Origin: a virus
Length of the DNA: 28,061 bases
IMG/VR virus record: IMGVR_UViG_3300031658_000078
Location: 1-28,061 of that record
Direction: 5' to 3' (one strand)
Part shown: one piece after another, positions 5,042 to 12,513 of the stretch
How the letters are laid out: every line of letters starts with the position of its first letter
How positions within the stretch are numbered: the first letter of the stretch is position 1
The notes under the pieces: model-generated
Databases searched by the model: none
Seen by the model: the letters and a program-made list of their open reading frames with translations, nothing else
Told to the model about the DNA's origin: nothing
Position numbers and translations under genes: made by a program

Positions 5042-5511
5042 CAGTAGATGCTCTCTTCAATCTCAAGTAACAGGGCCTCAGCTTCAAGGTCCACCAAAAC
5101 AAACGAACAGATAGCCTGTACTGCAGCCTTAAAGAACTCGCCAAACTCTTCCTGGCCCAATGCATCGAAGGCGATTGACTTAGCTACCACATGCTCAACC
5201 AGTGAATAGTCTTTGCCGTCACCGTTAGGCTGGAAGGTATAGCGAGACTCAAAGTGACCGACCGCGACCTTGATTGCATCGGACAGCGACTCTTTGCTGG
5301 GGAACTTTTCATCAAGCCCTTCTGGCAGGTTGTCGTGAACTTTGCCAATCAATGCCCAGTAGAGCCGGTGCTGTCGGACGTTACGCTTCTGGTTAACGTC
5401 CATCATGACAATCACCCCAGGGCTTAGCGCTCGAAAGACTTCACGAGCGTCGTCGCCGACTGGCTGCAATGCCATACCTACTCGAACGGCTGTAATGCGG
5501 CGCTTTGCCAT
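5041..5511 (-). CDS. DUF1367-like phage protein
   Basis: This 156-aa protein resembles the DUF1367 family of lambdoid and other phages in layout: an N-terminal strand, then KRNVRQHRLYWALIGKV (the R-N/R..HR.yfaLl signature), then VAKSIAFDALGQEEFGEFF close to the family's pKSIsFa.mdq.eFe.fy string near the C-terminus. The function of DUF1367 is not established; members sit among recombination/NinX-type genes. The ATG at 5511 lies inside the end of the upstream gene (34-base overlap). A second ATG at 5475 is possible but would remove the first family-like strand. Confidence 0.65.
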   Translation of the reverse strand: MAKRRITAVRVGMALQPVGDDAREVFRALSPGVIVMMDVNQKRNVRQHRLYWALIGKVHDNLPEGLDEKFPSKESLSDAIKVAVGHFESRYTFQPNGDGKDYSLVEHVVAKSIAFDALGQEEFGEFFKAAVQAICSFVLVDLEAEALLLEIEESIY

Positions 5512-6149: not shown

Positions 6150-6174
6150 CAGGGCCTTGCCTCCGTTAGCCCTG
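6150..6174 (-). terminator. Possible weak terminator after the SSB gene
   Basis: On the minus strand, CAGGGC and GCCCTG form a 6-bp stem with a 13-nt loop. CCCTTCCATTTTAG follows, so the T-run is displaced. It lies 25 bases beyond the SSB stop. The rest of the gap (6044-6198) shows no convincing promoter or ORF other than the start of the membrane-protein gene. Confidence 0.35.
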
Positions 6175-6198
6175 GTCAGCTTCATCCAAACTAAAATC

Positions 6199-6942
6199 TC
6201 AAAAGGGAATGTCATCGTCGAAGTCGTCGTCGCCCCCGTCAGGTATACCTCCCTGCTGGTTGTTCACGTCCTGCGCGTGATTGTTGGCCGCGTCTACTGG
6301 TCCGCTGGTTGCCGGTGTCGCGTTGCCTTGACTTGGGCTTGGCTCCTGCTGCTGCCGAGAGTTAACCGCTGGCGGCTCCCACCGACCATCTACGGCACTG
6401 ACCAGTGACTGGCACCACTTGTGGTAGTCGACCGTGGACAGGCCCGACGCGATAGCTGCGGCAGCAATGGCAGCGAAGGCCTGCGCCTTGGCAGCCTTCA
6501 ACGCTACAGGCCCCATATCATGAGACCGAGCCGCTGGCTGCTGCTGCTGATTGTTCTGCGGCTGCTGCTGCTGCTGATTGTTCTGCGGCCGATGCTGCTG
6601 CTGATTGTTCTGCGGCTGCTGATTGTTCTGCGGCTGCTGATTGTTATGCGGCTGCTGATAGCCCTGCTGCCGCTGTTGCTGCCCCATGCCTCCGCCCTGC
6701 CGCGAGTCTCGAGGCAGCTGCTGGCCGTTGATGGAGTTAAGCAGGTTGAAGCCGCTACCATTGACCTTGTACTGGATAGTGATTTGTTGACCAATGTACT
6801 GGCCGCACATGTCCAGCGCGGAGTCGTCGATTGTGTAGAAGATGCCGTTGACGTCTTTGACTGAGGCTGGCTTACGACCATCTCGCTGGTTGACATACTG
6901 TAGCGTGGTGTTGGCCTCAAAAGGCCCTTGCATTTGGCTCAT
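6199..6942 (-). CDS. ssb: Single-stranded DNA-binding protein with Q/N-rich linker
   Basis: This 247-aa protein has an N-terminal ~85-residue beta-rich part, a probable OB-fold that binds ssDNA, with little obvious identity to host SSB. It ends in GDDDFDDDIPF, the canonical SSB C-terminal tip that docks replication and repair partners. Between these are a Q/N tract (about residues 85-140, repeated NNQQPQ), a short Ala-rich helical segment (AAKAQAFAAIAAAAIAS) and a second flexible Gln/Ser/Pro part. At 247 aa it is longer than E. coli SSB (178 aa), mostly from the linker. The ATG at 6942 has AGAGAG upstream and follows a 10-bp-phased repeat. The nuclease gene lies upstream and recombination-type genes downstream. 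Confidence 0.82.
   Translation of the reverse strand: MSQMQGPFEANTTLQYVNQRDGRKPASVKDVNGIFYTIDDSALDMCGQYIGQQITIQYKVNGSGFNLLNSINGQQLPRDSRQGGGMGQQQRQQGYQQPHNNQQPQNNQQPQNNQQQHRPQNNQQQQQPQNNQQQQPAARSHDMGPVALKAAKAQAFAAIAAAAIASGLSTVDYHKWCQSLVSAVDGRWEPPAVNSRQQQEPSPSQGNATPATSGPVDAANNHAQDVNNQQGGIPDGGDDDFDDDIPF
6538..6682 (-). repeat. In-gene tandem repeat encoding the Q/N tract
   Basis: Imperfect copies of an approximately 18-bp unit (CTGCTGATTGTTCTGCGG on the plus strand) are arrayed inside the SSB gene and encode NNQQPQ units. Copy number could vary by slippage. Confidence 0.75.
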
Positions 6943-8058: not shown

Positions 8059-8322
8059 ATGAGTAAGAGCAAAGAGCAAAAGGAACAGGCGCGGGTGGAG
8101 TACCCGACCACATCGGCGTCGTTTAATATCCCAACGCAACAGGGCATGGTTACGGCCATCGACGCATTCTGTGAAAAGCACAGCATGGGTGAGAGCACGT
8201 TCTCTAAGCGACTGAACGGCGACCCTAATTTTATGAGGGAGATGCGCGGCGGCAGAGACTTGCGCTTATCGATGGTCCATAAAATATTCAAGTTCATGAA
8301 GTCTTACGGTGCTGTACGCTAG
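8059..8322 (+). CDS. Small HTH DNA-binding protein, putative regulator
   Basis: This 87-aa protein has a C-terminal segment AIDAFCEKHSMGESTFSKRL, then GDPNFMREMRGGRDLRLSMV, then HKIFKFM. It follows the pattern of small XRE-like helix-turn-helix proteins of proteobacteria and phages (I..F....gM..s.F...l.GDp.f...lr.GR...l..v..v..fm). The N-terminus is charged and probably flexible. GAGG lies eight bases before the ATG. It is the first rightward gene at the divergent control region, the classical place for a Cro-like or other early regulator. The likely operator is the palindrome at 7978-7989. Function is inferred from fold and place. Confidence 0.65.
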   Translation: MSKSKEQKEQARVEYPTTSASFNIPTQQGMVTAIDAFCEKHSMGESTFSKRLNGDPNFMREMRGGRDLRLSMVHKIFKFMKSYGAVR

Positions 8323-8686
8323 CTACGAGGGCAGCCTGCTGCTAGTGCCGCCAAGCAGTAACGCCCTTTATCTTAATCGGACCAAAGGCCGAGCAAAAAC
8401 AGAAAGCTACAAGTCATGGATAGCCAGCAGCGGGTACGCGGTCAATCAAGACAAACACCGAGACGGACCGTTCGCACTACTGCATCGGCAGATTGAACTT
8501 GAGTACGTTATCCGACTCCCTCCTGGGTCCGACCTGGGCAACAGAGAGAAGGCTATGACTGACTTGCTAGTCAATCAGGGAGTGATTCAGGATGACCGGT
8601 ACGTGGTCAAGATAACCCTCACCAAGATGATGAACTACAAGGATGGCGGACCTCAGTTATTGTGGAAGGCCATCGGACTGACGTAA
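8309..8686 (+). CDS. rusA: RusA-like Holliday junction resolvase
   Basis: This 125-aa protein matches RusA endonucleases in length and pattern: an N-terminal strand plus PPSSNALYL, then KGRAKTESYKSW, and the core DLGNREKAMTDLL (D75, N78, K81, D85) with GVIQDDRYV (D95, D96). These acidic residues form the metal site that cuts Holliday junctions made during phage replication and recombination. The GTG start at 8309 overlaps the HTH gene by 14 bases; an internal GTG at 8345 would remove the first strand. Its partners, the nuclease and SSB, lie across the control region on the other strand. Confidence 0.8.
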   Translation: MLYASYEGSLLLVPPSSNALYLNRTKGRAKTESYKSWIASSGYAVNQDKHRDGPFALLHRQIELEYVIRLPPGSDLGNREKAMTDLLVNQGVIQDDRYVVKITLTKMMNYKDGGPQLLWKAIGLT

Positions 8687-9565: not shown

Positions 9566-11376
9566 GCGACATCATCGAGATGAAGCGCATGCTCGCGGAC
9601 CGAGCGCAGGAAGTCTGTGAATACATCTGCCCTGACGGCGAACGCAAGCAGCACGAATGGGCGTACGACCCTGGGCACGGCAAAATCAAGGTAGAGCTGC
9701 GTGGAGGCAAGGCTGGGGTTTGGTCTCACTTTGGTGGGGATGGTGGCGGAGACCTGATTGACTTGTGGCGATACATGCGCGGCACCAGCATGCGTGACAC
9801 GCTGAAAGAGGTACGCAACTACCTGGGCATCGAAGAGACAGAGCCTCACCGCACGGCAGCCAAGAACTGGAACAGGCCAGTACCTCCGCGCACCGACCTC
9901 AAGCCAGAAGTCAGCGACGTTACCGAGTATCTGACCGGCACTCGAAAGATACCTCAGGCGTGGCTCGACACCTACGACATCGGAGCGCTGCCCAGCGGCA
10001 GAGCAATGGCATTCAAGTACAAGCTCAATGATACCGACGTCCGGCTGGTCAAGATAAGAACCCTTGATGGCAAGTCCATACCGACCGAGGCTAACTGCGA
10101 GCCGATACTTTTTGGCTGGCACACAGTGCCCGACGCATGCCGAGTAATAGCCATCGTCGAGGGCGAGCTTGATGCGCCAAGCGCTATGGCCCTAGGGATG
10201 CACGTACCAACGCTATCAGTACCGTTCGGTGGCGGCTCTGGTCAAAAGCAGCAATGGGTCGAGCACGACTGGGAGCGGCTAGAGCAGATGGAGAAGTTCT
10301 ATCTGATGCTGGACAATGACAAAGAGGGTGACATTGGCTGCGAGGAAATAGCCAAGCGCCTGGGGCGGCACAAGTGCGTCAGGGTCAGGCTCCCTAGGAA
10401 GGATGCCAACGCCTGTTTAATGGAAGGCTTATCCATAGATGACGCGGTCGAAGAAGCTGAAGAGATGAAGCCTGGAGGTATCCGACTAGTCGCATCCTAT
10501 GAGCAAGAAGTGCATGACCTTTTCGACCCACCCCCTAACACACACCTAGGTTACTCAAGCCCGTTCACTAGAATGCACGGCAAGCTGCTGTTCAGACCGG
10601 GCGAGGTAACGGTCTGGTCTGGCGACACTGGCTCGGGCAAGTCTCAAATACTGTCTTACCATGCGGCTTGGTGGGTGAAGGAAGGCAGCGGGGTTGTCAT
10701 AGCTAGCTTAGAGATGGCTCCAAACCAGACGCTCAGACGAATGGTCAGGCAGTGCTGCGACATGAACGCACCGTCGAAGGTATTCATAACGGAGTGTTTC
10801 GAGTTTCTGTCTGAGTCTCCCGCAGGAGGACGGGTGCTGATATACGACCAAGTAGGCAAGGATTCGCTCAAGGTCATTCTCGACAGCTTCAGCTACTGCA
10901 TGCGCAAGTACGGTGCTGACATGTTCATCATCGACAGCCTGATGCGCCTGGGCATAGAGACCGACGACTACAACGGGCAGGAAGCAGCCATGTTTGAGCT
11001 GACCAACTGGGCAGTAGTCAACCGGGTACACGTTCACTTAGTGGCTCATAACCGCAAGCGTCCAGCTGGACACAATGGAGGACAGGGGACCGACGGAATT
11101 AAGGGCGCAATGGAGGTGGCTGCTAATGCGTTCAATCACATCGAGATTTGGCGACGACGCGACGTAGAGGAAACGCTGAGCAAAGAGGCTGCCGGTATGC
11201 CTCTCTCGCCGAAGGAACAAGACAAGGTTGACTTGCCTTCTGTATCACTGGCCGTGAACAAGCAACGCAACGGGGACTTCGAGGGGCGCATGGGCTTATG
11301 GTTCGACCAAGACTCGTATAGGTACTGGGAAGAGAAGGGAGGACCATACGGCATAGGTAATAACCCTTACTTTTAG
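9562..11376 (+). CDS. Bifunctional primase-helicase
   Basis: This 604-aa protein combines primase and DnaB-type helicase parts as in T7 gp4/Twinkle. Residues 15-90 resemble the primase zinc-domain region (AGVWSHFGGDGGGDLIDLW), but only C19, C23 and H31 are obvious, so the zinc site looks reduced. A TOPRIM domain follows, with IVEGELDA (E200) and LMLDNDKEG (D251, D253). The RecA-like helicase core has Walker A GDTGSGKS (354-361), ASLEM with E384, Walker B MFIIDSL (454-460) and a VAHNRK motif near 494-499. It unwinds the fork and primes the lagging strand. It is translationally coupled to the initiator gene by ATGA. No phage polymerase gene is seen next to it. Confidence 0.9.
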   Translation: MSDIIEMKRMLADRAQEVCEYICPDGERKQHEWAYDPGHGKIKVELRGGKAGVWSHFGGDGGGDLIDLWRYMRGTSMRDTLKEVRNYLGIEETEPHRTAAKNWNRPVPPRTDLKPEVSDVTEYLTGTRKIPQAWLDTYDIGALPSGRAMAFKYKLNDTDVRLVKIRTLDGKSIPTEANCEPILFGWHTVPDACRVIAIVEGELDAPSAMALGMHVPTLSVPFGGGSGQKQQWVEHDWERLEQMEKFYLMLDNDKEGDIGCEEIAKRLGRHKCVRVRLPRKDANACLMEGLSIDDAVEEAEEMKPGGIRLVASYEQEVHDLFDPPPNTHLGYSSPFTRMHGKLLFRPGEVTVWSGDTGSGKSQILSYHAAWWVKEGSGVVIASLEMAPNQTLRRMVRQCCDMNAPSKVFITECFEFLSESPAGGRVLIYDQVGKDSLKVILDSFSYCMRKYGADMFIIDSLMRLGIETDDYNGQEAAMFELTNWAVVNRVHVHLVAHNRKRPAGHNGGQGTDGIKGAMEVAANAFNHIEIWRRRDVEETLSKEAAGMPLSPKEQDKVDLPSVSLAVNKQRNGDFEGRMGLWFDQDSYRYWEEKGGPYGIGNNPYF

Positions 11377-11404
11377 TAGACTTAAACCTACTGCACTGTA
11401 TAAT
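11377..11404 (+). promoter_or_regulatory. Promoter before the RNA genes and late region
   Basis: TAGACT (-35, 11377-11382), a 16-base spacer and a perfect TATAAT (-10, 11399-11404) follow directly on the primase-helicase stop. It would transcribe the small ORF and the tRNA cluster, and possibly the terminase and late genes. Confidence 0.65.
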
Positions 11405-11436: not shown

Positions 11437-11574
11437 ATGACCAAGTACAGCGTTACCAAGTCTGACCCAGGCCTGCCAGCCTGGACGGTACTAGCCATCC
11501 GCAGTGGACGGGTAGTATCAGTTGAGTATTTTGAGTCCAAGGCAGAAGCAGACTCCTGGGCCAATTGGGCCTGA
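11437..11574 (+). CDS. 45-aa small protein
   Basis: This complete ORF encodes MTKYSVTKSDPGLPAWTVLA and ends with VVSVEYFESKAEADSWANWA. Strand-strand-helix with a final SKAEADSWA helix is a common plan for tiny phage proteins of unknown role. It begins about 26 bases after the predicted transcription start and ends six bases before the tRNA-Glu gene. The ribosome binding site is weak (GAG 13 bases upstream). No function is proposed. Confidence 0.5.
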   Translation: MTKYSVTKSDPGLPAWTVLAIRSGRVVSVEYFESKAEADSWANWA

Positions 11575-11579
11575 ACAAC

Positions 11580-11654
11580 ACACCGTAGGTGCAATGGCAA
11601 CACACTGCCCTTTCACGGCAGATTTAGCGGGTTCGATTCCCGCACGGTGTACCA
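11580..11654 (+). tRNA. tRNA-Glu (TTC)
   Basis: The acceptor arms ACACCGT and ACGGTGT pair perfectly. The anticodon arm is CTGCC-CTTTCAC-GGCAG with anticodon TTC. The T arm is GCGGG-TTCGATT-CCCGC, and the 3' CCA is encoded. The D stem is short (GTG/CAC). The fold is otherwise standard and should be functional. Confidence 0.9.
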
Positions 11655-11657
11655 AAC

Positions 11658-11737
11658 TTGGGTGTAGCTCATTTCGGTAGAGCAGACTGCGGGGATGCGC
11701 AGTCAGGAGGTGGAATCGAGGCCACCCACCCAAGCCA
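11658..11737 (+). tRNA. Abnormal tRNA-like gene with encoded CCA
   Basis: The acceptor stem is perfect (TTGGGTG / CACCCAA), with discriminator G and an encoded CCA. The D arm is good (GCTC-ATTTCGGTA-GAGC). The anticodon arm is 20 nt instead of 17: GACTGC and GCAGTC pair over 6 bp with an 8-nt loop, GGGGATGC, lacking the usual U33. The T arm has a GGTGG/CCACC stem with an 8-nt loop AATCGAGG in place of TTCRANY. Identity cannot be assigned (GGG, GGA and GAT are possible readings). It is an aberrant, degenerate or specialised tRNA. Confidence 0.6.
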
Positions 11738-11834
11738 AACTTTGCTGGACGCGTTTCTCGCAGGTCGCGCGGAAAGCAAGGCAAGACGGTAGGCACGCTG
11801 CAAGTGTCCTAGAGCGGAGGAGGTCCGCACCTTA
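11738..11834 (+). other. Structured spacer, possible third tRNA-like element
   Basis: No ORF is seen. TTTGCT...AGCAAG and an inner CGCG/CGCG can form one hairpin (about 11742-11781). Downstream, GGCAC-GCTGCAA-GTGTC has exactly the form of a 17-nt anticodon arm. It is followed by a 5-nt gap and GCGGA...TCCGC, like a T stem. No complete acceptor stem was found. Confidence 0.3.
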
Positions 11835-11903
11835 GCTCGCCAGTCTGACAGGGTAGGTACCATCCAAGAGATGGCAAGCAGGGTTCGAGTCCCTGGGCGA
11901 GCA
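11835..11903 (+). tRNA. Abnormal short tRNA-like gene
   Basis: The acceptor stem is perfect (GCTCGCC / GGCGAGC) and the T arm is canonical (CAGGG-TTCGAGT-CCCTG). The length is only 69 nt. The D region is reduced (TCTGACAGGGTAGG, no clear 4-bp stem). The anticodon arm has CCAT/ATGG around CCAAGAG, read as AAG, or CCATC/GATGG around five bases. CCA is not encoded (ACC follows). Amino acid identity is uncertain. Confidence 0.55.
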
Positions 11904-11928: not shown

Positions 11929-12513
11929 ATGACTAAGGCAGCACTGAAGAAGGCTCGCGCAAGAGTCAAGCCTAGGACGAGCAACGGGACACCGGCAGTC
12001 AAGTGGCGACCGGAGTTCATTGAGCGAGTCAGGGGCGCAGCCTTCCAGGGCGCTACTCAAGCTGAGATAGCCAAGATGCTGGGTGTAGCAGTAACAACAC
12101 TTCATCGCTGGGCAAAGGGTAAGCCCGAGTTCAGCAAGGCCCTAAACGAAAGAGACGAAGCTGATGCGCGTGTAGAGCGTTCACTCTATGAGCGAGCCAT
12201 TGGTTACGAGTACATCGAGACCACCAGCGAAGCAGAGTGCGTAGCATTCAATGAGGATGGCGAGCAGGTACCCGTCGACAGTCCATTCGCGTACAGCTCT
12301 GAGATTGTAATGGTGCCGAAGAAGCAGGTAACCAAGAAGGAAGCGCCAAGCACGACGGCGCAAATATTCTGGCTTAAGAACCGCAAGCCTGAGTCCTGGC
12401 GTGACAAGTCTGTTGTAGAGCATGAAGACCCACAGAAGCGAGTAGCTGCATTACAGATGGGCCGCAAGCGCATAGCTGACGCACGCAAGAAGCGCGAGTC
12501 CAAAGAGTCATGA
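11929..12513 (+). CDS. terS: Terminase small subunit
   Basis: This 194-aa protein has a basic N-terminus and then a helix-turn-helix, AFQGATQAEIAKMLGVAVTT plus LHRWAKGKPEF (about residues 43-75), the DNA-recognition part of small terminases. The C-terminal TTAQIFWLKNRKPESWRDK string is a hallmark of this TerS group. The protein recognises the packaging site on phage DNA and recruits the large subunit. AGGAAG precedes the ATG. Unusually, the large subunit is not next; about 3.8 kb of small genes intervene. The stop overlaps the next small gene (ATGA). Confidence 0.85.
   Translation: MTKAALKKARARVKPRTSNGTPAVKWRPEFIERVRGAAFQGATQAEIAKMLGVAVTTLHRWAKGKPEFSKALNERDEADARVERSLYERAIGYEYIETTSEAECVAFNEDGEQVPVDSPFAYSSEIVMVPKKQVTKKEAPSTTAQIFWLKNRKPESWRDKSVVEHEDPQKRVAALQMGRKRIADARKKRESKES

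Follow-up and report, generated by a model that had tools for sequence, protein, structure and literature searches.

Abnormal tRNA-derived elements beside a tRNA-Glu gene in an epsilon15-like podovirus

Two elements downstream of a tRNA-Glu gene in a metagenomic phage contig are tRNA-derived and abnormal. Both keep intact acceptor and T arms, both carry anticodon loops of the wrong size that lack U33, and the cluster they belong to is absent from the relatives found. Our preferred reading, to which we give a probability of about 0.55, is that both are translation-incompetent tRNA descendants, relics of a small cluster in an epsilon15-like podovirus. If they are relics, they make tRNA turnover visible in a small podovirus; if they have been retained, phages would be using such tRNA shapes for a task other than decoding.

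A tRNA cluster between the primase-helicase and terS genes

The window analysed is a complete IMG/VR virus record of 28,061 bases, a metagenomic contig from a short-tailed phage (podovirus) of the epsilon15/phiV10/BPP-1-like type. Its portal protein is ~40% identical to the epsilon15 and phiV10 portals, and an environmental relative shares up to 59% identity in TerL. The cluster is flanked upstream by a primase-helicase gene (phrog_239) and downstream by the gene for the terminase small subunit, terS (11929–12513; phrog_309, E 1e-41). Between the helicase stop at 11376 and the terS start at 11929 lie a promoter-like site, a small ORF, tRNA-Glu and both elements, all on the plus strand. The promoter-like site, a candidate sigma-70-like match (TAGACT-16-TATAAT, 11377–11404; 10/12 in a consensus scan), sits just 3′ of the helicase stop and could drive the tRNA cluster together with terS. 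A 45-amino acid ORF (11437–11574), for which a Pfam search returned no match, ends 5 nt 5′ of tRNA-Glu(TTC) (11580–11654), which has an encoded CCA, is called by ARAGORN and scores 56.4 bits with the Rfam model and 63.5 bits with our own. This is an ordinary tRNA gene, as an earlier note on this DNA had held. Element 1 (11658–11737) follows after a gap of 3 nt, as in a normal array; a 97 nt spacer (11738–11834) separates it from element 2 (11835–11903), and terS starts 25 nt downstream of element 2. The spacer looks tRNA-Leu-like by eye and was considered as a third tRNA remnant. We rejected this candidate, as 194 of 200 shuffles gave similarity at least as high (~70 tRNAs compared), and a folding z-score of −0.4 also speaks against it.

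Both elements derive from tRNAs

Our own tRNA covariance model, trained on 34 phage and Escherichia coli tRNAs, gave 25.9 bits for element 1 and 26.3 bits for element 2, with E values of 4e-5 and 3e-5 for the pair; the best remaining score in the window was 8.3 bits, and the runner-up had an E value of 2. The Rfam tRNA model, run on the window with E up to 10 (cut-off 29 bits), reported tRNA-Glu only and neither element. Scores above background in our model, together with the silence of Rfam, indicate that both elements are tRNA-derived and abnormal, and that they are unlikely to decode. The covariance models yielded no standard fold with an ordinary anticodon and so did not refute the earlier description of the two as abnormal tRNA-like genes. 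ARAGORN labels element 2 as tRNA-Leu(aag) and leaves element 1 uncalled. A match to mascRNA-menRNA (RF01684) at 20.2 bits, below the gathering cut-off of 42.5, reflects acceptor and T-arm shape only.

A cloverleaf descriptor matched tRNA-Glu, element 1 and element 2, and nothing else on the plus strand of the window. Applied to 60 shuffled windows, it found 22 matches when the D stem was ignored; a demand for three D pairs left one, and for four D pairs none. Because shuffled windows match when the D stem is ignored, the shape of element 2 by itself could be chance. Its sequence could not easily be: the 3′ 25 nt, including A73, are identical to Firmicutes tRNA-Leu(CAA), a match equalled by 0/200 shuffles. 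Element 2 therefore began as a real tRNA.

Paired stems and abnormal loops

The 5′ half of element 1 reads TTGGGTG-TA-GCTC-ATTTCGGTA-GAGC-A-(GACTGCG GGGATG CGCAGTC), with the anticodon arm in brackets, and the 3′ half reads AGGA-(GGTGG AATCGAGG CCACC)-CACCCAA-G-CCA, with the T arm in brackets. The four-arm cloverleaf has 23 pairs (7 acceptor, 4 D, 7 anticodon and 5 T), and 23/23 are Watson-Crick; just 5 of the 34 reference tRNAs reach even three such arms. RNA folding returns exactly this cloverleaf (z = −4.4), with 0/200 shuffles equally stable. The acceptor end has U1-A72 (T1-A72 in DNA), G73 and the encoded CCA, and G18-G19, T55-C56 and A58 are retained. Direct reading confirmed what had been reported of this element: 7/7 acceptor pairs, the encoded CCA, a 20 nt anticodon arm without U33 and an 8 nt T loop without TTC. 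The anticodon arm is a 7 bp stem closed by the 6 nt loop GGGATG, the T loop is AATCGAGG with T54 replaced, and in all the element carries ~5 loop lesions.

Element 2 begins GCTCGCC and ends CAGGG-TTCGAGT-CCCTG-GGCGAGC-A. Its length of 69 nt, full pairing of the acceptor (7/7) and T arm (5/5), and a D arm collapsed to ~2 pairs all agree with the earlier account. The consensus T loop TTCGAGT fits that of a functional elongator (7 nt with TTC), whereas AATCGAGG in element 1 does not. A73 is present and CCA is not encoded. The anticodon arm can be folded in two ways, CCATC-CAAGA-GATGG with a 5 nt loop or CCAT-CCAAGAG-ATGG with C33. This arm had been called poor, which holds for the size and content of the loop; the stem is a well-paired hairpin. 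Overall folding is less distinctive (z = −1.8; 13/200 shuffles as stable), and lesions outnumber those of element 1. Firmicutes tRNA-Leu(CAA) is a full class II tRNA whose variable arm is long, whereas the variable region of element 2 measures 4 nt and its D arm has been lost. An attachment-site remnant was considered and rejected: we saw neither an integrase nor any other supporting feature, and the 5′ acceptor strand is present, so the element is more than a 3′ fragment. On a 315-kb IMG/VR phage contig, a tRNA with anticodon CTA (5047–5119; tRNA-Pyl according to ARAGORN) has 22 nt of its 3′ part in common with element 2, and is itself likely an amber suppressor.

These loops bear on whether the elements could decode, element 1 with an enlarged loop and element 2 as a tRNA-Leu(AAG) with C33. 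The ARAGORN label of element 2 would fit, as would a 10 nt loop in element 1 if two extra pairs stay open. We nevertheless consider functional decoding very unlikely, given that in their best folds neither element has U33 or a 7 nt loop, that the T loop of element 1 is enlarged with T54 replaced, that element 2 has lost the D arm and is missing the long variable arm of Leu tRNAs, and that element 1 was missed by both ARAGORN and Rfam. Sequencing or assembly errors that made normal tRNAs appear broken are the least probable explanation. The source is an IMG/VR metagenomic contig and a search for a second copy of the locus found none, but each element has several independent lesions, none of them in the acceptor or T stems, and the neighbouring tRNA and ORFs are intact.

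The earlier note had proposed, as one of several options, that the elements are decoys for host anticodon nucleases, and phage tRNAs do take part in escape from these enzymes (PMC10264068, PMC11555353). In the published cases, however, the phage supplies decoding tRNAs that take over from cleaved host tRNAs and resist or outlast cleavage, rather than sacrificial loops (PMC10264068, PMC11555353). Those tRNAs are likewise phage-encoded and some have altered loops, but they decode, whereas a normal decoding loop is absent from both elements. No part of either element is more altered than the anticodon arm, which has a 6 nt or 5 nt loop without U33 where the nuclease target would be, and we regard the proposal as having very little chance of being right. 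Bacillus cereus provides a precedent for a recruited pseudo-tRNA in tRNAOther, a tRNA-shaped gene with no function in translation (PMC3399842). Unlike the elements described here, it is chromosomal, lies at a genomic island, forms part of a larger regulatory RNA and has been studied experimentally (PMC3399842).

Constraint versus decay

Perfect acceptor pairing had also been taken to argue that selection maintains the elements. A fully paired acceptor stem is normal among tRNAs (31/34). We simulated decay by random substitutions and indels, in an unconditional version: all four arms were still paired in 5.1% of runs after 5 events, 2.9% after 6 and 0.9% after 8, and the acceptor and T arm survived in 10% after 8 events and 3% after 12. 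A first simulation, which awaited the exact lesion set and left the arms intact at 8e-5, was dropped as conditioned after the fact. The intact arms are thus mild evidence of constraint, weakened further by the choice of these elements for their stems. The argument from acceptor pairing is weak: paired acceptors are the norm, and all-arm survival by chance is 5.1% after 5 events.

Comparison with relatives was made by several routes. ARAGORN called no tRNA on 82 related phage contigs among the matches listed, and our covariance model found nothing above 16 bits (none above 15.4) in the 884 kb of these contigs. Orthologue searches with TerS and the helicase found nothing; the portal led to two loci, neither with a tRNA, and a TerL profile search to at least 80 loci, none with a tRNA among the matches listed. 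An exact pattern for the anticodon arm of element 1 had no matches, and one for the 3′ end of tRNA-Glu had a single match, on an unrelated tRNA-rich contig, with no related cluster. The tRNA cluster is therefore lineage-specific among the related contigs listed, and with no tRNA-like element above 16 bits in these relatives, they give no orthologues by which decay could be told from selection.

Probable relics of a small tRNA cluster

In the scheme we favour, the phage would have gained a small tRNA cluster in the interval from primase-helicase to terS, with tRNA-Glu the sole member left intact. Both elements would be co-transcribed with tRNA-Glu and terS, and host RNase P may still cut them, as its recognition elements are retained, but neither would be charged or used in translation. 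Slow decay would then be under way in both, more advanced in element 2 than in element 1. We favour this reading because each element scores 26 bits against 63.5 for tRNA-Glu and goes unreported by Rfam, because the best folds have neither U33 nor a 7 nt anticodon loop, and because element 2 lacks a D arm and CCA, yet matches tRNA-Leu over its 3′ 25 nt. The 3 nt spacing of element 1 from tRNA-Glu, like that of an array member, and the lack of the cluster in the 82 related contigs listed point the same way. Against relics stand the all-Watson-Crick pairing of element 1 in four arms and the chance of only ~5% that all arms survive five random events. Perfect hairpins in place of the anticodon arms are atypical of random decay, and Vequintavirinae keep a U33-less tRNA with compensatory acceptor changes.

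What RNase P chiefly recognises is the acceptor-T-arm domain together with CCA. In the main rival reading, the elements might act as punctuation, putative RNase P or 3′ tRNA nuclease cut sites in the cluster-terS transcript, where cuts would free tRNA-Glu and define the 5′ end of the terS mRNA; acceptor, T arm and elbow would suffice, leaving the anticodon arm free to change. The parts that RNase P recognises are precisely those intact in both elements, and element 2 ends just 25 nt before terS. Many covarying T-arm/acceptor mini-elements lie between actinophage genes, and in Pantoea phages an acceptor/T-arm element belongs to a tRNA cluster located ahead of terS; other phages thus do have tRNA-shaped modules where genes meet. 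We still judge this role unlikely, since tRNA-Glu by itself would supply the cut, CCA is missing from element 2, and with no orthologue among the relatives found there is no view of constraint.

A U33-less tRNA kept in Vequintavirinae

A tRNA-? or tRNA-Ile(gat)-like gene of Vequintavirinae (Klebsiella phage KpS8, Salmonella phage SSE121 and Cronobacter phage Csp-D17) lacks U33, is located after tRNA-Thr and is conserved in ~40 records. It lies at 8098–8172 in the KpS8 locus and at 59–135 in four further loci, and its annotation varies between tRNA-Ser, tRNA-Ile and none. The anticodon loops are ACGATA, ACGATTA, ACGATTC, AAGATTC and ACAGATCC, with U33 absent in 5/5 distinct sequences, while 16/16 acceptor, D and T pairs are kept in all five. 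Two acceptor pairs are changed on both sides, among these few (five) sequences. At the level of sequence, these genes show that U33-less tRNA genes can persist with an intact acceptor stem.

Like element 1, the Vequintavirinae tRNA is an array member with U1-A72, G73, an encoded CCA, intact acceptor, D and T arms and a non-canonical anticodon loop, here 6–8 nt with C or A at the U33 position. In contrast to element 1, it has a normal TTC T loop and is conserved with compensatory acceptor changes. Homology between the two, suggested by U1-A72, U2-A71 in KpS8, G73 and a loop of the form xxGATx, was left as unproven; the two share universal tRNA positions only, and an alignment has the D-arm consensus in common and little else. 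Judged by such comparison, the Vequintavirinae tRNA is a parallel of element 1 rather than a demonstrated homologue.

This parallel bears on the idea that the elements are non-decoding mimics, a sponge or decoy for a putative enzyme of the acceptor end or elbow, such as an aminoacyl-tRNA synthetase, a CCA-targeting toxin or a defence nuclease. Element 1 would suit such a role, having an intact acceptor, elbow (G18G19, T55C56) and CCA yet no decoding loop, and in Vequintavirinae a CCA-ended tRNA without U33 is conserved, its acceptor changes being compensatory. However, element 2 does not encode CCA, orthologues were not found among the relatives listed, and the Vequintavirinae tRNA and element 1 have just general tRNA features in common; mimicry appears quite improbable here. 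The broader proposal, that phages widely keep non-decoding tRNA shapes, with acceptor, elbow and T arm selected as RNase P marks or acceptor-end decoys, is possible but doubtful.

The KpS8 tRNA array also contains two unannotated tRNA-like stretches (8534–8612 and 9851–9928) that score 27.5 and 24.5 bits and on which ARAGORN is silent. These low scorers suggest that degenerate tRNAs are possibly common in phage arrays.

tRNA-like elements in other phages

The better-supported non-decoding tRNA-like RNAs are the U33-less tRNA of Vequintavirinae and a covarying mini-element of actinophages. The latter is ~45 nt long, with a 5 bp acceptor-like stem, a D-loop-like GGCAGACA, no anticodon arm and a 6 bp T stem with an invariant TTCGAGT loop, and is unannotated. 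Streptomyces phage Joe (KX815338) has eight copies between 43,000 and 47,700, in early-gene gaps; across them all pairs hold, with 18 double-change cells and a covariation score reached by 0/500 shuffles. In Mycobacterium phage Riparian the mini-element occupies locus positions 401–442, between two genes, and a single query matched at 825 sites across 138 records of actinophages (Streptomyces, Mycobacterium and Gordonia). It has no match in Rfam, and the paper on the Joe genome mentions it neither as a tRNA nor as a hairpin. From its covariation it looks like a real RNA element, and possibly an undescribed one.

Pantoea phage AAM37 (MK798143, ~586–726) carries a conserved element of ~140 nt with a tRNA acceptor and T arm ending GGCGAGC-G-CCA, in which a long conserved insert including TTTAGCGATGCGCATCGCTTTA replaces the D and anticodon arms. 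The AAM37 copy sits upstream of terS, inside a tRNA cluster, and the same type of element occurs in two further loci (about 6160–6303).
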